Positions 14,701-24,944 of a stretch of DNA of 64,000 nucleotides are shown one piece after another. Each line of letters opens with the position of its first letter. Position 1 is the stretch's first letter. The translations under genes were made by a program, and so were the position numbers. Source of the DNA: Enterococcus dongliensis. Its GTDB lineage: Bacteria > Bacillota > Bacilli > Lactobacillales > Enterococcaceae. Under the pieces are notes generated by a model. It was not told the DNA's origin. It did no database searches and saw only the letters and a list, made by a program, of their open reading frames with translations. The DNA is taken from assembly GCF_005405225.1 (NCBI RefSeq), contig NZ_BJDQ01000006.1, positions 1-64,000 of the forward strand, written 5' to 3'.

Positions 14701-17343
14701 TCAATCATTTTCTGGATCTATTTCTGGTGTTTTGTGGAATTTAATCAATTCATTGACGATGATTGGAACGATTGACAGCAAGATTGCAATCACCCAATGA
14801 TTCATACTGATCGGCACTAGGTAGAATAATTTTTGCGTTTGCGGAATCAACGCAATCGCAGTTGTGATTCCCAGTGCCAGCCAAGCCATTTGTGCCAATG
14901 ATTTATTTGTGGCTAAGTCTACTTTAAAGATTGATTTACTGCTTCGTACATTAAATACATGTAAGATCGAAGAATATGCTAAGACTAAGAAAGCCACTGT
15001 TTGCCCTACTTCTAAACTTGGTGGCGTAAAATAGCTGACATGTTCAACGAACGCTCCAACATAAAAACCGATCAGTGTCACAATCGTAAATACAACAGCA
15101 TTTAGACCTATTTTCTTCCATAGGCCCCGCGCAAAGATTCCTTCATCACGCGGAATTGGTTTTTCATCCATGATTCCTGCTTCTGCTGGTTCTCTTCCTA
15201 ATGCAAAACCAGGCAATCCATCTGCTACTACATTGACAAATAACAGCTGAACCGCAGTGAATGGTGCGCCCCAACCTAATAACATAGCAATCACTACAAT
15301 AAAAATCTCAGAGATATTGCAACTTAATAAAAAATTGATCGCTTTTCTGATCCCTTGATAAACTGAACGGCCTCTTGCTACTGCATCAACGATCGTAGCA
15401 AAATTATCATCTGTCAAAATCATATCAGCTGCGCCTTTAGCAACATCTGTTCCAGTGATTCCCATTGCACAACCGACGTCACTCGCTTTTAAAGCTGGCG
15501 CATCATTGACCCCATCACCTGTCATAGCAACAACTGCACCCGTTCGCTGCCATGATTTAACGATTCTGATTTTATCTTCCGGTGTCACTCGAGCATAGAC
15601 CGATAATTCTTTGACACGAGCATCCAGTTCATCGTCACTCATCTTTTGTAATTCCGTACCTGAAAGAGCTTCTTTTCGCGATTTCATGATGCCCAATTCT
15701 TTTGCAATCGCTCCAGCAGTCACAACATGGTCGCCAGTAATCATTACTGTTTTAATCCCTGCTTTTTTTGCACGAGCAATCGCACCTTTTGACTCGGGAC
15801 GCGGAGGATCAATCATTCCGATCAATCCCATCAAACGCAGCTTTTTCTCCAATGCTTCTGAAGTAAATTCCGTAGGTTCTTCTTCATGAATTGCATAACC
15901 TACTGCAATTACGCGGAGAGCTTTTTTACCAAAACGATCATTGACGATTGCCGCTTGATCCACATCTCCATAATAGAATTTAGGGAGCAAGACATCAAAG
16001 GCACCTTTAGTAATCGAGATGAACTTTTTGCCACGTTTATGTACTGTCGTCATCATCTTACGTTCAGAATCAAAAGGAATTTCTCCAATACGAGGATATT
16101 TTTCTTCTAATTCGGCTTTAGTATGATAGTTTTCCTCCACTGCACGAACAATCGCGGCTTCGGTTGGATTACCTTTGATTTCCAATTCATTGTCATCATT
16201 TTCTACTACGACATCGGTACATAAAGCAGCGATACTTAAAACTTCCATGGCTTCATCTGTCATACCTTCTTCAGTGTCCACCACTGAATCTCCATGGGTC
16301 CAGACTCGGCGAACACGCATCTTGTTTTGTGTCAGTGTCCCCGTCTTATCCGAACAAATAACATTTGCTGAACCCAATGTTTCCACAGCCGGTAGTTTTC
16401 GTATGATCGCATTTTTTTTCGCCATTTTCTGTACGCCAAATGCCAAGGTCAACGTTACAATTACCATCAACGTCTCTGGTACAGCCGCTACTGCCAATGA
16501 AATCGAAGTAATGAACATATCTAATATTGGTTCACCTTGCATTTCCCCAATGAAAAACACAAAAGCCGCAGCTGCCAAAGCGATCAAACTAATTCGTTTG
16601 CCTAATTGATTTAATCGTTTTTGCAGAGGTGTTTTTTGGTTTTCATCATTGTTTAATAACCCTGCGATTTTCCCCATCTCAGTCTTCATACCTGTTGCTG
16701 TAACAATTGCTTTCCCACGACCATTCACTACCGTCGATCCTTTGTAAAGCATATTCAGTCGATCTCCTAGAGCAGCCCCCTCCTCACCTAAATAGTCAGG
16801 ATCTTTTATCACGGGTTCACTCTCGCCCGTCAAGGCCGATTCTTCTACACGCAACTGCGAGGCTTCGACAATCCGTGCATCTGCAGTGATCATTGAACCA
16901 GCTTCTAACAATAGTGTATCTCCAGGTACTAATTCTTCCGCATCGATCTCTTCTTGTTTTCCATCACGTATGACTGTAGCTGTTTGTTTGTTCATATCTT
17001 GTAAGGCAGACAATGCTTTTTCTGCATTCCCCTCTTGTACGATAGCTAAAACAGAATTAATCACAACAATCGCGATAATCAAAAAACTTTCAAAATAATC
17101 CCCATGATCTGTGGCAATCGCAGTGTATAGTGAGATTACTGCTGCTACCAATAAAATAATTGTCGTGAAATCCGTCAAACTATGAAAGAACTTTTTTGCT
17201 AATGATTCTTTCGCAGCTTCTTCAAATTTATTTTTTCCGTTATTTTTTATTTTATCACCAACTTGGTTGCTAGTTAAACCATGATCTAAATCAGCATCAT
17301 ATTCATCAATTACATTGTCTATCTTTTCTTTATATGGATCCAT
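14701..17343 (-). CDS. cation-transporting P-type ATPase, Ca2+ type
   Basis: P2-type pump, probably exporting Ca2+. Actuator motif TGES at 172-175; phosphorylation site DKTGT at 332-336; GDGVNDAPALK in the hinge; ten membrane helices with four after the last cytoplasmic domain. 880 residues, the same length as the Listeria Ca2+ pump LMCA1 as I recall it. Helix 5 has NISE (Asn and Glu ligands as in SERCA). Helix 6 has NVVAD, where Ala replaces the SERCA Thr. Helix 4 reads VPETLM instead of the usual IPEGLP. The site-II acids remain, so transport of one Ca2+ per cycle is plausible, but Mn2+ or another ion cannot be excluded. AGGAGG precedes the ATG; it is a single-gene unit. Confidence 0.9.
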   Translation of the reverse strand: MDPYKEKIDNVIDEYDADLDHGLTSNQVGDKIKNNGKNKFEEAAKESLAKKFFHSLTDFTTIILLVAAVISLYTAIATDHGDYFESFLIIAIVVINSVLAIVQEGNAEKALSALQDMNKQTATVIRDGKQEEIDAEELVPGDTLLLEAGSMITADARIVEASQLRVEESALTGESEPVIKDPDYLGEEGAALGDRLNMLYKGSTVVNGRGKAIVTATGMKTEMGKIAGLLNNDENQKTPLQKRLNQLGKRISLIALAAAAFVFFIGEMQGEPILDMFITSISLAVAAVPETLMVIVTLTLAFGVQKMAKKNAIIRKLPAVETLGSANVICSDKTGTLTQNKMRVRRVWTHGDSVVDTEEGMTDEAMEVLSIAALCTDVVVENDDNELEIKGNPTEAAIVRAVEENYHTKAELEEKYPRIGEIPFDSERKMMTTVHKRGKKFISITKGAFDVLLPKFYYGDVDQAAIVNDRFGKKALRVIAVGYAIHEEEPTEFTSEALEKKLRLMGLIGMIDPPRPESKGAIARAKKAGIKTVMITGDHVVTAGAIAKELGIMKSRKEALSGTELQKMSDDELDARVKELSVYARVTPEDKIRIVKSWQRTGAVVAMTGDGVNDAPALKASDVGCAMGITGTDVAKGAADMILTDDNFATIVDAVARGRSVYQGIRKAINFLLSCNISEIFIVVIAMLLGWGAPFTAVQLLFVNVVADGLPGFALGREPAEAGIMDEKPIPRDEGIFARGLWKKIGLNAVVFTIVTLIGFYVGAFVEHVSYFTPPSLEVGQTVAFLVLAYSSILHVFNVRSSKSIFKVDLATNKSLAQMAWLALGITTAIALIPQTQKLFYLVPISMNHWVIAILLSIVPIIVNELIKFHKTPEIDPEND

Positions 17344-17383
17344 CCTATTCCTCCTAATGTTATAAAAAACTACTTATATTATT

Positions 17384-17413
17384 ACTATAACATAGAAAAG
17401 ATAACGAACTCAA
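17384..17413 (-). promoter_or_regulatory. promoter of the P-type ATPase gene
   Basis: On the minus strand, TTGAGT (17408-17413) and TATAGT (17384-17389) are spaced by 18 nt, about 40 nt before the start codon. Confidence 0.6.
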
Positions 17414-17499
17414 AGTAAACAGTCTATATTTAGTCAAAAAGAAACAAAATAAACCGCTAAAAATAAACATATAAAACGCTTCCGTAATTAGATAAACTA

Positions 17500-17508
17500 T
17501 GCTATATT
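17500..17508 (+). promoter_or_regulatory. extended -10 promoter of the candidate RNA
   Basis: TGCTATATT is an extended -10 (TG-N-TATATT) with a poor -35, and transcription would start at about 17514-17517. This is immediately before the 5' arm of the long-range helix described for the RNA. Confidence 0.55.
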
Positions 17509-17514
17509 ATAGAT

Positions 17515-17887
17515 ACAAGGAAGGAGGAACTTAGATCATTCGAAGGATTTCTCGATAAGAAAGTAGAAGAAAGTAAACAATAAAATTGTTAGTAATACAA
17601 GGTTCACTGAAAAGTGTCAATAATACGTGTGAAGTATTTCCTTTTAAAAATAGTGAATGCGTATCCGAGATTGAGTAGTTCATCAAACACACAAGTAAAA
17701 TGATACGTAAAATAAGAAAAGATTCTTAAAACTGAATAGAAGTGAAAACGTAGTAAAAACAAATATTTATGTTTATAGTCAAGAAATTCATGTAATACTT
17801 TGCATGTATCATAAAGTAATATAAATTCGAATGAACTAATCCTTCCGATATTCTAAGAGCCAGGCAGTCGAGAGCCTGGCTTTTTTT
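17515..17887 (+). ncRNA. candidate structured non-coding RNA, about 370 nt
   Basis: There is no credible open reading frame here, but there is a full transcription unit: an extended -10 at 17500-17508 and a strong terminator at 17858-17887. The two ends are complementary. GGAAGGA (17519-17525) pairs with TCCTTCC (17840-17846); TTAG (17531-17534) with CTAA (17836-17839); TCATTCGAA (17536-17544) with TTCGAATGA (17826-17834). The only irregularities are one A-A mismatch and a 5-nt bulge. Inside are small hairpins: CACT-GAAA-AGTG with a GNRA loop, AATAC/GTATT, TGCGTATC/GATACGTA, and TACTTT/AAAGTA. It does not resemble tmRNA, RNase P RNA, SRP RNA or 6S RNA. The alternative is a mobile element with imperfect terminal inverted repeats. 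Confidence 0.6.
17858..17887 (+). terminator. terminator of the candidate RNA
   Basis: Perfect 8-bp GC-rich stem AGCCAGGC / GCCTGGCT with an 8-nt loop and seven T. There is no plus-strand protein gene upstream of it for several kilobases, which is itself evidence for the RNA. Confidence 0.93.
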
Positions 17888-17934
17888 GCGTTCAGAATCA
17901 ATACCTACTCTATTAAAGACTTTTCAACAAAATC

Positions 17935-17977
17935 AAACACAAAATCGCCCAATCATCTTTTTGATGACTGGACGATT
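17935..17977 (-). terminator. terminator of the ketodeoxygluconate operon
   Basis: Arms at 17943-17957 and 17963-17977 pair along 15 positions, allowing G-U pairs, and are followed on the minus strand by TTTTGTGTTTG. Confidence 0.8.
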
Positions 17978-17993
17978 CCCATTAACTATTTTA

Positions 17994-19016
17994 TTAACGA
18001 GCTAAACGTGCGCCGCTATTACTTTCCATTACTTGATTAATCTCAGCTTCTGAAACTAAATTCAAATCACCTGTGATTGTCAATTTCAAGACACTAGCTG
18101 CTAATGCAAATTTCACTAATTTTTCTGATGAGTAATCATGTAACAAGCCATGCAACAAACCAGCACCAAACGCATCTCCGGCTGCAACACCTTCCATGAC
18201 ATGCATGTCATAAGTAGCTGTTTCATAAAACGTTTCATCTGTCAGTAACAAGGCTGTCCATTGACTCGCTTCTACAGAGTAGATATTTCGTAAAATACTT
18301 GCTACCATTTTACAATTAGGATAATCAGCTTGAACTTGTTTCATTGCTGCTTTAAACGATTCTTTTTGTTCAATCCCACGTGAGCTGTCACCATCAAATG
18401 CTTGGATTCCCAAAGTGGCTTCAAAATCTTCATCATGAGCGATACAAATCGTTACATACTCCATAATTTTAGAGATCACTTTTTGTGCTTGCTCGGGACT
18501 CCACATTTTTGCCCGATAATTCAAGTCGCAAACAACGGGGATGCCTTGTTGTTTACAATACTCACAAGCAGCTAAAGCCGCTTGTTCTAAATCAGGCGAA
18601 ATCGCTGGCGTGATACCGGAAAAATAGAAATAGTCAACATCTTTAAAAATAGTCGGCCAATCAAATTCTGTTTGTGCTACTTGTGAAAAAGCACTGTAGG
18701 CACGATCATAGACGACATTTGTCGAACGAACACTGGTACCTTTTTCAAAAAAGTAGATTCCTAAACGATCTCCGCCAGTCAAGATTTTTGATGTGTCCAC
18801 TCCATATTTTTGCAAAGTGCTTTTAGCCGCTTGTCCTAATGGATTGTTGGGAAACTTACTTAAATAGCTGACTTCATCACCTAATAAAGCTAATGAAACA
18901 GCTACATTTGCCTCTGCCCCACCATAGGTCGCTTCATAAGATTGTGTTTGTAAAATCCGTTCATTCCCAGGTGTCTTCAACCGCAGCATCATTTCACCAA
19001 AAGATAAAACTTTCAT
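17994..19016 (-). CDS. kdgK: 2-dehydro-3-deoxygluconokinase
   Basis: Phosphorylates 2-keto-3-deoxygluconate (KDG) to KDPG in the cytoplasm. PfkB-family sugar kinase: N-terminal MKVLSFGEMMLRL, the substrate-side GGAEANVAVSLALLG near residue 32, and the C-terminal GVAAGDAFGAGLLHGLL with the catalytic Asp near 280. 340 residues. It follows the aldolase gene by 3 nt, so the two steps KDG to KDPG to pyruvate plus glyceraldehyde-3-phosphate are coupled. It is the last gene of the operon. Confidence 0.92.
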   Translation of the reverse strand: MKVLSFGEMMLRLKTPGNERILQTQSYEATYGGAEANVAVSLALLGDEVSYLSKFPNNPLGQAAKSTLQKYGVDTSKILTGGDRLGIYFFEKGTSVRSTNVVYDRAYSAFSQVAQTEFDWPTIFKDVDYFYFSGITPAISPDLEQAALAACEYCKQQGIPVVCDLNYRAKMWSPEQAQKVISKIMEYVTICIAHDEDFEATLGIQAFDGDSSRGIEQKESFKAAMKQVQADYPNCKMVASILRNIYSVEASQWTALLLTDETFYETATYDMHVMEGVAAGDAFGAGLLHGLLHDYSSEKLVKFALAASVLKLTITGDLNLVSEAEINQVMESNSGARLAR

Positions 19017-19019
19017 TAC

Positions 19020-19670
19020 TTACACCTCGCTTTTAATCAACTCTAGTTTCGCTACATATTCTTTAGCCACTTCAGTCACAGCTGCAAAATCTCCTTTAGC
19101 TGCTGGGGCTAATAAATTCCCGCCTACACCCACACAAGTGACGCCGGCTTTGAACCAATCAGCTAGATTATCTAAACCAACACCACCTGTTGGCATGATA
19201 TTCAATTGTGGCAATGGTGCCTTAAAGGCTTTAATGATACTTGGACCAAAAGCACTTCCTGGGAATAATTTGACGATATCTACGCCTGATTTCAACGCAT
19301 CCTTCATTTCAGTGATCGTCATGCATCCTGGTAAGTAAGGAATTTGATACAAGTTACAAATTTCAGCTGTTTCAGCATCAAAACATGGGCTGACAACATA
19401 TTCCGCCCCAGCCATAATAGCAATTCTGGCTGTCACAGCATCTAAAACCGTACCTGCCCCAATCACGACATCCTCACGGTCAGAATATTTTTCGACTAAT
19501 TCGCCGATCAATTCTTCCGCATTTGGAACGGTAAAGGTCAATTCAATCCCTGTAATCCCGCCTTTGATGATGGCATCGGTTGCCTTAGAGGCTTCCTCTT
19601 TATTTTTTCCTCGTACGACAGCAATGACGCCGGCTTTTTCTAGTTTGTTCAAAATACTCATTTTTTTCAT
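19020..19670 (-). CDS. kdgA: 2-dehydro-3-deoxyphosphogluconate (KDPG) aldolase
   Basis: Cleaves KDPG to pyruvate and glyceraldehyde-3-phosphate. Class I aldolase of the Eda/KdgA family: GVIAVVRG, the catalytic Glu in GGITGIELTFTVPNA, GAGTVLD, VSPCFD, and the Schiff-base Lys in VKLFPGS followed by MPTGGV. I chose the ATG at 19670 (216 residues) because AAAGGA lies 9 nt upstream; a longer frame begins with a TTG at 19688 that overlaps this ribosome-binding site. Operon partner of the kinase and the PTS IIC. Confidence 0.93.
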   Translation of the reverse strand: MKKMSILNKLEKAGVIAVVRGKNKEEASKATDAIIKGGITGIELTFTVPNAEELIGELVEKYSDREDVVIGAGTVLDAVTARIAIMAGAEYVVSPCFDAETAEICNLYQIPYLPGCMTITEMKDALKSGVDIVKLFPGSAFGPSIIKAFKAPLPQLNIMPTGGVGLDNLADWFKAGVTCVGVGGNLLAPAAKGDFAAVTEVAKEYVAKLELIKSEV

Positions 19671-19696
19671 TTCATCGGTTCCTTTCAACTACAAAA

Positions 19697-21046
19697 TTAA
19701 CTATTTGTTAAATCAGTAGTTATTTTCTTTCTATTGAATAGCGCAAAAGCAATCGTTAATACGCCTAAGATGATCGCTCCAACTACTCCGATATTAGCAG
19801 TTAATTGATAAGTAATCCATGAAAATGGACTAGCTGCAAAGTCAATTGATGCTACAGATTCTGTTCCTTTTGGAATCAATGAACCATCAACAAGTCGAAC
19901 CGCTTTAGTAAAGATTGTAGATAATGATGTTGCAAATAAAACACCTGTAACCAGTGTCAAGATTCCTGTTATCAATGAACGCAAGACATTCCCTTTAGTA
20001 TAAGGCAAGACCAATGGGAAAATGTAAATCAAACCAGATAATGAAGCTAATGGTAAGAATTTATTTCCTGGAATGATTACGGATAAGAATAAAATAATTG
20101 GAACTAATAGTAACGAACAAACTAATGTTACTGGATGACCGATTACCAAGGCTGGTGTCATACCAATATTTAGTTTCCGACCACCTTTTAATTTAGAACC
20201 AATCAATTCTTGTGAACGTTGAGAAATAGGATTCAAACCTTCAATAAATTGACCAGTGATCTTAGGGATCAAGACCATTACAGCAGCCATAGTGATTCCT
20301 AGCGTCAACATTTGAGCAATTGAATATTGAGCAATCAAACCTAATAAAATACCGACAATTACCCCTAAGAAAAGCGGTTCGCCAAAGATACCAAATTTGT
20401 CTTGCATTTTTTTAGCATCAAGATCGACTTTATTCAATCCAGGGATTTTTTCAATAATCCAATCTGTAATGATTGCAAAAGGAATAAAGCCTACACAAAA
20501 TGCTTGCGGAATGGAAATCCCCTCGAGGTCTTTTCCATAAAACGATTCCATTTTCTTCTGCGAACGATCCGCACCAATCAATGTGATAGCTACTGTTACA
20601 ACTACTGCGAAAAGTCCCCATAAGAAACTATCTGTTGCGATTGAAACGATTGATCCAATAAATGCAAAATGCCAATAGTTCCACAAATCAATATTTACAG
20701 TATTCGTTGTTCTTGTAAACAGCATAATAATATTGACCAACAAACCTAACGGAATAACGATTGCACCAACTTCTGTACCATAAGCAACTGCTGCTGCTGC
20801 TGGCCAACCAATATCTAATGTTTTTAAATTTAGTCCATACAGTTCTACCATTTTGCTAACTGCTGGTCCTAAGTTATCCGCTAATAATTTCGTGATGACA
20901 CTTAAACCAACAAAACCAATACCAACAGAAATCCCTGCTCGTAAAGATTTAGCAACGCCTAATCCTAAAATAATTCCAAAAATTGTAAAGATAATCGGCA
21001 TCATCACGCTAGCGCCCAAACTCATGACATAATTAATTACTACCAT
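19697..21046 (-). CDS. PTS IIC component, galactitol (GatC) family
   Basis: Sugar-translocating membrane subunit of a phosphotransferase system, related to the galactitol IIC family. 449 residues with about ten or more hydrophobic segments. Telling stretches are VAYGTEVGAIVIPLGLLVN near residue 95 and the GHP in PALVIGHPVTLVC near 300. AGGAGG lies 9 nt before the ATG at 21046. No IIA or IIB gene is present anywhere in the window, so the phosphoryl-transfer partners must be elsewhere or the protein transports without phosphorylation. Position between the dehydrogenase and the aldolase suggests a substrate that ends as KDG, such as a sugar acid. The exact sugar is unknown. Confidence 0.82.
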   Translation of the reverse strand: MVVINYVMSLGASVMMPIIFTIFGIILGLGVAKSLRAGISVGIGFVGLSVITKLLADNLGPAVSKMVELYGLNLKTLDIGWPAAAAVAYGTEVGAIVIPLGLLVNIIMLFTRTTNTVNIDLWNYWHFAFIGSIVSIATDSFLWGLFAVVVTVAITLIGADRSQKKMESFYGKDLEGISIPQAFCVGFIPFAIITDWIIEKIPGLNKVDLDAKKMQDKFGIFGEPLFLGVIVGILLGLIAQYSIAQMLTLGITMAAVMVLIPKITGQFIEGLNPISQRSQELIGSKLKGGRKLNIGMTPALVIGHPVTLVCSLLLVPIILFLSVIIPGNKFLPLASLSGLIYIFPLVLPYTKGNVLRSLITGILTLVTGVLFATSLSTIFTKAVRLVDGSLIPKGTESVASIDFAASPFSWITYQLTANIGVVGAIILGVLTIAFALFNRKKITTDLTNS

Positions 21047-21110
21047 GGTTTTTTTCCTCCTTATACATCCCAATCTATTAATTCATAAATTCACAATGTA
21101 CGAATTAGAG

Positions 21111-21134
21111 TAAGGCTGGCTTTCACCAGCCCTA
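21111..21134 (-). other. intercistronic hairpin between the dehydrogenase and IIC genes
   Basis: GGCTGG (21114-21119) and CCAGCC (21126-21131) form a GC-rich hairpin in the 102-nt gap. The tail on the minus strand (TTACTC) is poor in T, so full termination is unlikely. Partial termination or an mRNA-stabilising end is possible. Confidence 0.5.
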
Positions 21135-21148
21135 CAACAATCAGCAAA

Positions 21149-21955
21149 TTATGGTTGTTTACCGATGTATGCTAAGATACCGCCGTCAACATACAAAACA
21201 TGTCCATTTACAAAATCAGAAGCATCAGATGCTAAAAAGACTGCTGGTCCTTGTAGATCTGCTGTTGTACCCCAGCGAGCAGCTGGTGTTTTAGCAATAA
21301 TGAATTGATCAAACGGATGACGTGAACCATCTGCTTGTTTTTCACGCAATGGTGCAGTTTGCGGAGTAGCAATATAACCAGGTCCAATTCCATTACATTG
21401 GATATTTGCTTCACCGAATTCTGAACAGATGTTACGTGTTAACATTTTTAATCCGCCTTTTGCAGCTGCGTAGGCAGAAACTGTTTCTCTTCCTAATTCA
21501 CTCATCATTGAACAAATGTTAATGATTTTTCCGTGACCTTTTTTGATCATTCCTGGAATTACCGCTTTTGATACGATAAATGGTGCGTTCAAGTCAACAT
21601 CAACTACTTGACGGAATGCTTCAGCAGACATTTCTAACATTGGAATTCGTTTAATAATCCCTGCGTTATTAACTAAAACATCAATCGTTCCTACTTCTTT
21701 TTCTACTTTTGCTACAAATTCATTAACTTCTTGTTCGTTTGTCACGTCGCAGACATAACCTTTTGCTTCGATACCTTCTTCTTTATATGCAGCGATACCT
21801 TTATCTACTAATTCTTGTTTAATATCGTTAAATACGATTGTAGCGCCTGCTTTAGCAAATGCAGAAGCAATACTAAAACCGATTCCGTAAGAAGCGCCAG
21901 TAACAAGTGCAACTTTTCCTTTTAAGCTAAATGAATCCATTGAAAAATCTGACAT
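21149..21955 (-). CDS. SDR dehydrogenase, gluconate 5-dehydrogenase / KduD-like
   Basis: Short-chain dehydrogenase of 268 residues: NAD(P) motif TGASYGIG near residue 19, NNAG at about 95, and catalytic Ser, Tyr and Lys in SMMSELGRETVSAYAAAKGG. It closely resembles the streptococcal enzymes called gluconate 5-dehydrogenase; in some streptococcal uronate operons this protein acts as the ketoreductase that makes KDG (DhuD). With kdgK and kdgA downstream, the KDG-forming role is the better inference here. No KduI or DhuI isomerase and no unsaturated glucuronyl hydrolase is in the cluster. First gene of the operon; its promoter overlaps a clear palindrome. Confidence 0.85.
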   Translation of the reverse strand: MSDFSMDSFSLKGKVALVTGASYGIGFSIASAFAKAGATIVFNDIKQELVDKGIAAYKEEGIEAKGYVCDVTNEQEVNEFVAKVEKEVGTIDVLVNNAGIIKRIPMLEMSAEAFRQVVDVDLNAPFIVSKAVIPGMIKKGHGKIINICSMMSELGRETVSAYAAAKGGLKMLTRNICSEFGEANIQCNGIGPGYIATPQTAPLREKQADGSRHPFDQFIIAKTPAARWGTTADLQGPAVFLASDASDFVNGHVLYVDGGILAYIGKQP

Positions 21956-22390
21956 CTATATCCCTCGTTTCCTATTTGGAAATTATATTTTCCAAATAAA
22001 ATATTTTACATTTGTGAGTATATGCTCTAAGAAATAAAAAATCAAGCGTTTTCGGCAAAATATGTATTCGGTTCCACCTTGAAATAACTGATTGATTTAT
22101 GAAAATTTCCATCTCTCTCACTGGCAGATTCTTTATTATTTACTTATTAGAATCAAAATATAAAAAGAAAATAAGTTGAAAAGAGCTAAAATAGCCGTAT
22201 TAAATAAATATATTTTTGAAAATCTAGTGTTTATAAAATAATGCAGATCTTATTAAATCAATCACAAATAGTTGATATCATTTTTCTGAAACAATGGTGT
22301 TCAATAACAAAAAATAAAAAAATCTTTATTTCTTGATAAATTTGCTATTAACACTCTCATTGAATTTCTTTCAACCAACACTACAAAAAA
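21956..22390. other. 435-nt AT-rich gap holding the operon promoter
   Basis: Contains the promoter and operator at 21974-21997 and the terminator of the IclR gene at 22391-22416. A poor cre-like core (GAAAACGCTTGA on the minus strand) lies near 22046-22060. The remaining sequence, 22060-22380, is very AT-rich; I see no gene or convincing RNA in it. Confidence 0.5.
21974..21997 (-). promoter_or_regulatory. palindromic operator over the -10 of the ketodeoxygluconate operon
   Basis: ATTTGGAAA (21974-21982), 6-nt spacer, TTTCCAAAT (21989-21997): a perfect 9-bp inverted repeat. On the minus strand the -10 TATAAT (21982-21987) falls inside it. A regulator bound here would block RNA polymerase. The IclR protein encoded next door is the obvious candidate. 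Confidence 0.7.
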
Positions 22391-22416
22391 AGATCAGAGA
22401 AATGCTTCTCTGATCT
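22391..22416 (-). terminator. terminator of the IclR gene
   Basis: Perfect 11-bp stem AGATCAGAGAA / TTCTCTGATCT with a 4-nt loop and a run of T on the minus strand. Confidence 0.93.
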
Positions 22417-22431
22417 CAAATGACACTTAAA

Positions 22432-23196
22432 TTATCTTAGGCGTTTTTCTATGTTGGCTTTTGTAGTTAGTAGTTCTGTCACGACTTTTTGCCGATATTC
22501 TTCGGAAAATCTAAACTTGGGAAAGCTGACACTCATCGCACCGACGACACGATCATGCTTTTCAATCGTGACCGCCACACAATACCCATCATCTTCTTGC
22601 TCTTCATCATCGATCGAGAACCCTCTTTTTCGAATCTCAGCTAAATCAGCTGTTAACGCTGCACGATCCGTAATCGTATTTTTAGCTAGCTGAACTAATT
22701 CTGTTTGATCCAGATAAGCAGATAATTGTGGTTGAGTAAATGTGCTCAAAATAGCTTTTCCCATACCTGAACTATATAGTGGGCGCGATAGACCGATTCG
22801 CGACGTCATATAGATTCCTTGATTTTGTGGTTCTAATTTATCGATGTAGACAACTTTATTGTTTTCCAAAACAGATAAATGGATTGTCTCATTCAATGCT
22901 GCACGTAATTCTTCTAAATAAGGTCTGCTGATAGCCAGCAACCGCTCAGCTTCGATATTTTGCGTGTTATACTCCATAAATTTCGTACCTAGATAATATA
23001 ATTTTGCTTCGTCACGAATGACATACCCGATATAAATTAACGTCTCTAAGATTTTAGAAAGATTTGAAGGGGTAATCCCAGTTTCTTTTGATAACTCTTG
23101 GATAGTTTTTCCGCCATCTTTAGCAAGGGTATCTAAAATTTTTGCTGCTTTTAATAAGACACTGCCGTATAGTTTCTTTTCCGTATTTTTTTCCAA
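22432..23196 (-). CDS. IclR-family transcriptional regulator (KdgR-like)
   Basis: 254 residues: N-terminal winged helix-turn-helix (about 12-70, with TIQELSKETGITPSNLSKILETL) and a C-terminal IclR effector domain (about 85-250) containing GKAILS and GFSIDDEEQEDDGYCVAV. The start is TTG at 23196, with GGAGGG 6 nt before it. It is a separate unit on the same strand as the KDG genes, upstream of them, so control of that operon through the palindrome at 21974-21997 is a strong inference. The ligand is probably KDG or KDPG, by analogy with KdgR. Confidence 0.9.
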   Translation of the reverse strand: MEKNTEKKLYGSVLLKAAKILDTLAKDGGKTIQELSKETGITPSNLSKILETLIYIGYVIRDEAKLYYLGTKFMEYNTQNIEAERLLAISRPYLEELRAALNETIHLSVLENNKVVYIDKLEPQNQGIYMTSRIGLSRPLYSSGMGKAILSTFTQPQLSAYLDQTELVQLAKNTITDRAALTADLAEIRKRGFSIDDEEQEDDGYCVAVTIEKHDRVVGAMSVSFPKFRFSEEYRQKVVTELLTTKANIEKRLR

Positions 23197-23912: not shown

Positions 23913-24944
23913 TTACTTAACAAACATCGCGTCGCCGAAACTAAAGAAGCGGTAGCGTTCTTCGATTGCATGATGATACGCAGCCAGCGTTTCATCTCGT
24001 CCAGCAAAAGCACTCACTAACATCACTAGTGTTGATTTTGGTAAATGAAAATTTGTTGAAAAGGCTTGAACGATTTTAAACTCGTATCCTGGTGTGATGA
24101 AAATATCCGTCCAACCGCTATCAGCTTTGATCTCACCATTAAATTTTGTTCCAATCGTTTCTAATGTACGAATCGAAGTCGTCCCCACTGCAATGATTTT
24201 TCCGCCATTTTTTCGGACTTCATTCAATTGAGCAGCAGCCTCTTCAGTCAAACGATAAAACTCACTGTGCATTTGATGTTCTTCAATATTTTCTACACTG
24301 ACTGGACGGAAAGTTCCTAGTCCAACATGCAATGTCAAGTAGACCAATTTCACTCCTTTTGCGGCAATTTTTTCTAATAATTCCGGTGTGAAATGCAACC
24401 CAGCAGTTGGTGCTGCAGCAGAGCCATTTTCTTTTGCATAGACTGTTTGATAGCGTTCCGGATCGTCCAAACGTTCTTTGATATAAGGCGGCAATGGCAT
24501 CTCACCAAGTGATTCTAGATTTTCTAAAAAGATTCCTTCATAAGAAAATTCCACGATTCGACCGCCGTGTTCTAATTCTGTTTTTACTTCTGCACGTAAA
24601 CGACCATCACCAAAAACAATTTGGGTCCCAACTTTGGCACGTCGAGCTGGCTTAATCAACGTTTCCCATTCGTCCCCTTGCGTATTATTTAACAACAATA
24701 CTTCTAAATGTCCCCCAGTTTCTGGTTTTTCACCATATAATCGAGCTGGTAAAACTCGGGTATCATTCATTACTAAGGCATCCCCAGGATTCAGTTCTTC
24801 AATTATTTCGTCAAAATGTTTATCTGATATTTGACCAGTCTCCCGATCCAACACCAACAAACGTGAACTGTCGCGCTTTTCTAGAGGGGTTTGGGCAATT
24901 AATTCTTCTGGTAAATCAAAATCAAAATCTTCTGTAGTTAACAT
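23913..24944 (-). CDS. queA: S-adenosylmethionine:tRNA ribosyltransferase-isomerase
   Basis: Transfers and isomerises the ribosyl group of S-adenosylmethionine onto preQ1 in tRNA, giving epoxyqueuosine, the step after Tgt. 343 residues, full length. Visible family motifs: [22 protein letters not shown] at the start, [22 protein letters not shown] near 175-187, [12 protein letters not shown] near 205, GTTSIRTLE and [15 protein letters not shown] near the end. GAGGAG precedes the ATG. In many Firmicutes queA, tgt and yajC are adjacent; here they are separated. Confidence 0.96.

Follow-up and report, generated by a model that had tools for sequence, protein, structure and literature searches.

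The window, by which we mean the whole 64,000-nt stretch of Enterococcus dongliensis DNA analysed here, contains a gap between a P-type ATPase gene and a KDG operon that holds a transcription unit on the plus strand. The features of this locus are given below; neighbours were counted at the loci of 69 copies of the RNA, within fetched flanks of limited length.

14701-17343, minus strand: divergent P-type ATPase, a recurring neighbour, upstream of the RNA at 59 of 69 loci
17344-17993: gap flanked by two minus-strand genes, the ATPase (start at 17343) and KdgK of the KDG operon (at 17994)
17471-17485, plus strand: degenerate cre-like (CcpA) site matching 10 of 13 positions, at the same place as sites of 11-13 of 13 in the sister genomes shown
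17500-17508, plus strand: extended -10, TGCTATATT; inspection by eye shows its TGnTA core in the relatives displayed
17513-17887, plus strand: structured RNA of 375 nt, almost certainly the Ref19C/Ern0160 orthologue, with full-length homologues
17855-17887, plus strand: intrinsic terminator with T-run; the listed relatives differ in the sequence of its stem but preserve the pairing
23913-24944, minus strand: QueA, the convergent neighbour in relatives and here past the KDG operon, downstream of the RNA at 43 of 69 loci

The preliminary description of this DNA had proposed a plus-strand unit in the gap with its own promoter and terminator, and both signals were recovered, although the RNA start, set there at 17515, moves 2 bases earlier to 17513 by homology to the published E. 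faecalis start. The promoter scan listed no plus-strand -35/-10 pair at the RNA promoter. The ATPase lies 171 nt upstream of the RNA, and an upstream P-type ATPase is found at 159-401 nt across the 59 loci. Three loci were left out before the 59- and 69-copy counts, namely L039 (the same as L038), L036 (from the genome of L070) and L055 (in which no RNA was found); re-fetched loci of counted genomes (e.g., L057, L061-L063, L074-L103) and named records were also uncounted.

In the window, the interval between the RNA and queA is occupied by a KDG-type operon (17994-23196, minus strand), whose genes were named by eye from their translations as kinase, aldolase, permease, dehydrogenase and IclR-like regulator. 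In sister loci (e.g., L011 and L013) no more than 50 nt separate the RNA from queA, which suggests that the operon was inserted in the window. Two overlapping ORFs of 53 and 52 aa (17531-17762) lie on the minus strand over the RNA, and a weak opposite-strand transcript, sRNA_0170, is reported over the same locus in E. faecium (PMC5593968). In two sister species (L027 and L028), an extra terminator with a CGAGA loop lies downstream of the RNA.

The preliminary description had called this a structured RNA of an undescribed kind. A search of Rfam at gathering cut-offs, the check proposed there, gave no match in the window. At a permissive threshold, RF02639 aligned weakly with 17513-17892 over positions 1-474 of its 474 (11.6 bits, E 1.4), below its gathering cut-off of 533 bits and outscored in the window by SNORD101, VqmR and DUF805b, which we took as chance matches; at E≤0.001 no RF02639 match was found in the window's own genome. 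The family nevertheless matched 25 of 105 family genomes, at the places of this RNA where compared. Only the E. faecalis-like genome G021 passed the cut-off (586 bits); the 24 further genomes carry sub-threshold, mostly end-to-end matches. Thus, Rfam misses the RNA because the RF02639 cut-off admits only one of the 105 genomes. When Rfam families were run on the window and eight homologue loci, the sole match was RF02639 in L056, the locus of G021. In the opposite direction, a profile of the window's relatives detected L056 at 7e-36 and the E. durans locus L064 at 2e-88; the same search gave no match in L055 and L072.

We conclude with high confidence that the window RNA is the avium-group orthologue of E. 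faecalis Ref19C (EF0869_EF0870, RF02639) and of E. faecium Ern0160. This rests on the RF02639 matches across the family, the relatives' profile and the locus, and not on the weak match in the window. The identity with Ref19C follows from full-length homology and locus, and that with Ern0160 from locus, strand, size and homology to its genus. The structured nature of the RNA is upheld, as are its promoter, terminator and closing helix, with coevolution seen in relatives (see below); the claim of novelty is not.

Ref19C was mapped by RACE and gave a northern signal only after 24 h, from cells in glucose medium, as reported in PMC3166299. For sRNA_0160, PMC5593968 describes a 370-nt, abundant transcript of late accumulation, whose count of 147,750 is the highest among the table entries listed. 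The context given for both Ref19C and Ern0160, a divergent ATPase and a convergent queA (PMC3166299, PMC12870237, PMC5593968), is found in the window, with queA past the KDG operon. Ref19C shares the locus, the start and helices P1-P3 with the window RNA, but the copy in the E. faecalis-like G021 lacks both pseudoknot motifs described below. Ern0160, at 370 nt and with late accumulation, has the locus and orientation of the window RNA, and other members of its genus, among them E. durans, carry homologues at this locus. The authors of Ern0160 describe a 113-nt region of 24% identity common to it and Ref19C (PMC12870237, PMC5593968), whereas the homology found here extends over the full length.

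The preliminary description had also set the RNA apart from tmRNA, RNase P, SRP and 6S RNA, and rightly so, as no such Rfam match occurs at the locus. 6S RNA resembles it in being abundant, long and closed by end pairing, but is a separate gene without a sequence-family match to the window RNA: the 6S gene of the window's genome lies elsewhere (G000:C8:51999-52192), and no RF00013 match was found at the RNA locus.

We then considered the distribution of the RNA. With blastn at E≤0.01, matches were found in 63 of 147 genomes, the window's own included, some of them short and doubtful. R1, a model of 154 positions covering the 3' part of the RNA and built from 25 copies, is sequence-only because the automatic structure of the 3' module had no base pair; it gave one match each in 81 of 105 family genomes, including all 20 of the window's genus. 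One of these, in G033, was judged false, leaving 80, of which part were inspected. In an order-wide sample R1 matched 59 of 395 genomes, six of them in a second family, f8, with Vagococcus salmoninarum and V. allomyrinae among the six; in a class-wide sample it matched 4 of 398, all within the same order. Two of the 59 order-wide matches, in G033 (L112) and G296 (L114), were treated as false, since they carry none of the RNA's landmarks. Apart from the RNA itself, matches in the window's own genome are limited to five stretches of 19-22 nt.

This distribution bears on whether the RNA is a large mobile or phage-borne RNA similar to ROOL or GOLLD, for which its size and ornate shape could speak. 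The preliminary description had tied such a reading to many dispersed copies; the single match in each of the 81 positive family genomes and the recurring locus argue against it. Moreover, plasmid records (72,556) and phage records (50,697) gave no blastn match at 1e-5, and Rfam gave no match to large-RNA families. We regard a mobile origin as exceedingly improbable.

A cis-acting origin, in which the RNA would be a leader or read-through product, or an element controlling the ATPase or the downstream gene, draws on the promoter region common to the RNA and the divergent ATPase, and on the published E. faecalis RNA, which continues beyond the terminator as far as the following gene's start codon. 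The RF02639 model, of 474 nt, includes this extension, whereas the window RNA ends at the terminator after 375 nt. In L056, the model likewise passes an intrinsic terminator on the RNA strand and reaches the next gene's start codon, which suggests that the curated 3' end is a read-through end. Against a cis-acting role, the RNA is on the opposite strand to the ATPase at 59 of 59 and to QueA at 43 of 43 loci where these were found, a terminator-like 3' end is present in 59 of 59 trimmed copies, the RNA is retained at the Vagococcus loci although their fetched flanks gave no ATPase match, and trans effects are reported in PMC12870237. Such a role is very unlikely.

The RNA unit has a minimum free energy of -83.6 kcal/mol (z -5.2), and none of 100 dinucleotide shuffles folded as well. 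Its helices, conserved segments and proposed pseudoknot sides, all on the plus strand, are:

17519-17525: P1 5' strand, GGAAGGA, pairing with 17840-17846
17530-17544: P2 5' strand, coevolving with 17826-17839
17550-17555: UCUCGA, 5' side of the proposed pseudoknot, co-occurring with the UCGAG loop
17583-17598: conserved AAA[G/A]UUGUUAG segment, matching the predicted LysM-pairing segment of an E. faecium-clade genome
17601-17608: conserved UUCAC(C) motif, UUCAC being present in 65 of 69 copies; it may pair with 17652-17658
17623-17638: P3 5' strand, 16 bp with 17794-17809
17659-17665: P4 5' strand, GCGUAUC, pairing with 17702-17708
17702-17708: P4 3' strand, GAUACGU, pairing with 17659-17665
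17781-17790: conserved AAGAAAUUCA segment, conserved in relatives
17794-17809: P3 3' strand, 16 bp with 17623-17638
17826-17839: P2 3' strand, coevolving with 17530-17544
17840-17846: P1 3' strand, UCCUUCC, pairing with 17519-17525
17868-17873: UCGAGA, loop of the terminator and proposed 3' side of the pseudoknot, rare in other terminators

The end-to-end pairing in blocks of 7, 4 and 9 bp that had first been noticed is present in the minimum-energy fold (17519-17525, 17531-17534 and 17536-17544 with 17826-17846). The hairpin with a GAAA loop (CACTGAAAAGTG, 17605-17616), pointed out at the same time, was found in one of 69 copies, that of the window itself, and drops out of the conserved structure.

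A column-pair covariation scan against a simulated-tree null yielded nothing at E<1, the best pair being one of P2 (E 1.35). For this reason, we used an alignment-free swap test, in which the pairing of each copy's 5' strand with its own 3' strand is compared with its pairing with those of other copies. For P2, with 12 representatives below 75% identity, own strands paired at -14.6 and swapped strands at -5.3 kcal/mol, and none of 100,000 permutations was as good. For P3, with 16 representatives below 80% identity (L046 and L066 unparsed), the values were -18.8 and -16.8 kcal/mol (p 3e-4). Neither P4 (p 0.08, with 6 of 59 copies lacking the anchor) nor the hairpin located 3' of P3 (p 0.1) reached significance; p was 0.64 for a short 5' hairpin, and three arbitrary segment pairs serving as controls gave p 0.29-0.65. 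Coevolution among the copies thus supports the predicted closing helix P2 and the long-range helix P3.

P1 is identical in 52 of 69 copies. The 17 variants comprise, in the register used, five two-sided changes keeping the pairing, six wobbles and six mismatches. The compensatory forms are GGAAGGU/ACCUUCC (twice) and GAAAGGA/UCCUUUC, GGAGGAC/GUCUUCC and GGAAGAA/UUCUUCC (once each), so that the predicted P1 is supported by few compensatory changes.

The 5' end also prompts the question of whether AAGGAAGGAGG is the ribosome-binding site of an overlooked short protein, the RNA then being a small mRNA. This end is Shine-Dalgarno-like, and in the E. faecalis-like copy an ATG stands two bases after the tract, nearer than the range of 2-14 nt that was counted. 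Yet an ATG 2-14 nt after the tract occurs in 2 of 69 copies and any start codon in 25 of 69, with unrelated frame lengths, and GGAAGGA is engaged in P1. As first described, the unit appears to encode no protein, its RNA-strand ORFs being short and unconserved. A small mRNA is very unlikely indeed, slightly more so than a cis-acting element.

The terminator stem varies among the copies, whereas its UCGAG loop is kept in 66 of 69. All 66 also carry the UCUCGA-type motif, and the remaining three (L056, L066 and L113) carry neither. Eight further diverged loci, inspected by eye, gave five with both motifs and three with neither; L234, one of these three, has an unrecognisable 5' half of the RNA. 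Overall, 71 of 77 copies have both motifs, six have neither and none has one only. These are counts of raw copies, and the losses may represent few independent events, as related genomes share them. A UCGAG-type loop is found in 0 of 21 other terminators of the window and in 2 of 48 in the locus flanks, these two being one sequence in sister species, and a pattern search of the window's own genome returned no second terminator of this loop form. The co-occurrence in 77 of 77 copies suggests that UCUCGA may pair with the terminator loop as a pseudoknot. In genus g4 (L066, L233 and L235), UCUCGA is replaced by a UUUUCUAG-like motif and the terminator loop is changed too.

We scored the upstream regions at 13 positions against a consensus that we take to be that of cre, the CcpA site. 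A score of 12 or 13 was reached in 60 of 69 regions, as compared with 17 of 3,450 shuffles and 5 of 1,599 75-mers of the window. The best site begins 32-33 nt before the RNA in 49 copies, 42-43 nt in 19 and 65 nt in one; at the E. faecalis-like locus, the distance from its first base to the published RNA start is 33 nt, which places it over the promoter, so that bound CcpA should hinder the polymerase. CcpA is therefore a likely regulator of the RNA family, judging from its upstream sequences. It should be noted that the window's own score of 10 is reached by 486 of its 1,599 75-mers (30%), which makes CcpA control of this copy uncertain. RsaI of Staphylococcus aureus is a CcpA-repressed sRNA released when glucose runs out, and it is shorter; the window RNA would share this wiring. 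The term CcpA is absent from the main texts of PMC12870237 and PMC3166299.

In E. faecium, PMC12870237 reports that Ern0160 binds LysM mRNA in gel shifts, forming direct complexes in vitro. Binding was lost on deleting 13 nt of the LysM target, and LysM repression on deleting 13 nt of Ern0160; cold RNA added as competitor had no significant effect on the gel shift. According to the same report, 13 genes changed on deletion of Ern0160 and 419 on its overexpression, with none in common. In G148, which belongs to E. durans' genus, the RNA is predicted to form its strongest duplex with both LysM paralogues through the AAAGUUGUUAG segment, which pairs with the beginning of the ORF; this is consistent with the published pairing site inside the LysM ORF (PMC12870237). 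The AAAGUUGUUAG segment probably corresponds to the 13-nt site of the published work.

Across genomes, the pairing of the conserved segment with LysM exceeded all 200 shuffles in 2 of 26, G148 and G147 (E. durans). The next was G018, with 2% of shuffles as good, and the window's genome stood at 10%; the LysM pairing published for Ern0160 is not confidently predicted there. When the whole RNA was searched in G148, shuffled versions of the two LysM mRNAs did as well as the real ones in 2 of 60 and 4 of 60 cases. Of 15 LysM loci compared with control ORFs, one had no ORF; among the 14 tested, L194 (G001) beat all 45 control ORFs and the remaining 13 were unremarkable, with 13-27% of controls as good for the best of them. 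Own LysM pairings gave -18.5, against -18.0 for all pairings (27 genomes). Combining nine hand-picked genomes gave a p of 6e-4, which was set aside, since it was carried by G148 and G147. Two related LysM genes are present in 17 of 20 genomes of the window's genus, one of which per genome was tested, and L179 and L180, from one genome of E. durans' genus, are similar LysM signal-peptide genes whose start region is complementary to the RNA.

With only 2 of 26 genomes standing out, LysM pairing cannot account for the conservation of the RNA, and where the segment is conserved and the pairing absent, other targets or another role should maintain it. This raises the alternative of a mainly structural or protein-binding scaffold, such as 6S RNA, to which mRNA pairing was added late in the E. 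faecium clade. Two families retain the length of about 375 nt, the long-range helices and the proposed pseudoknot of the terminator, the conserved segments are longer than one sRNA seed, LysM pairing is not conserved and the RNA is abundant. Moreover, Ern0160 is also reported in gradient fractions 8-10, near RNA polymerase (4-8), 6S (5-9) and 30S (~10). The Ern0160 authors describe, however, no examined RNA-binding protein with a matching gradient profile, and the sRNA-mRNA complexes they obtained in vitro are direct (PMC12870237). We hold the scaffold reading, the main rival to the one favoured below, to be tentative and less than likely. A bolder form, in which the terminator is part of the tertiary fold and the ancestral role in enterococci and vagococci is that of a scaffold or machine acting at sugar exhaustion and not mRNA pairing, appears unlikely.

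The best reading, which we favour with moderate confidence, is that of a CcpA-repressed, late-growth, trans-acting regulatory RNA whose closed scaffold is probably pseudoknotted. While preferred sugars last, CcpA at the cre over the promoter would repress the RNA, and on exhaustion of these sugars the RNA would be made in large amounts, as the position of the cre and the published late-growth expression suggest. The transcript of ~375 nt would then fold into a closed rod, in which P1 and P2 join the ends and P3 closes the core, and the terminator loop would fold back onto UCUCGA as a pseudoknot. This scaffold may protect the RNA and present the AAAGUUGUUAG, UUCACC and AAGAAAUUCA segments, which would pair with mRNAs in trans, as others have demonstrated for LysM in E. 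faecium. Compared with the published accounts, what is likely new is the conserved closed shape and a probable switch under sugar control.

Overall, two separately named sRNAs, one of them a reported regulator of colonisation and virulence, are joined into one family with a testable fold, and the reason why the Rfam entry misses this family is made apparent. The family also gains a likely regulator, CcpA, and a proposed terminator-loop pseudoknot.
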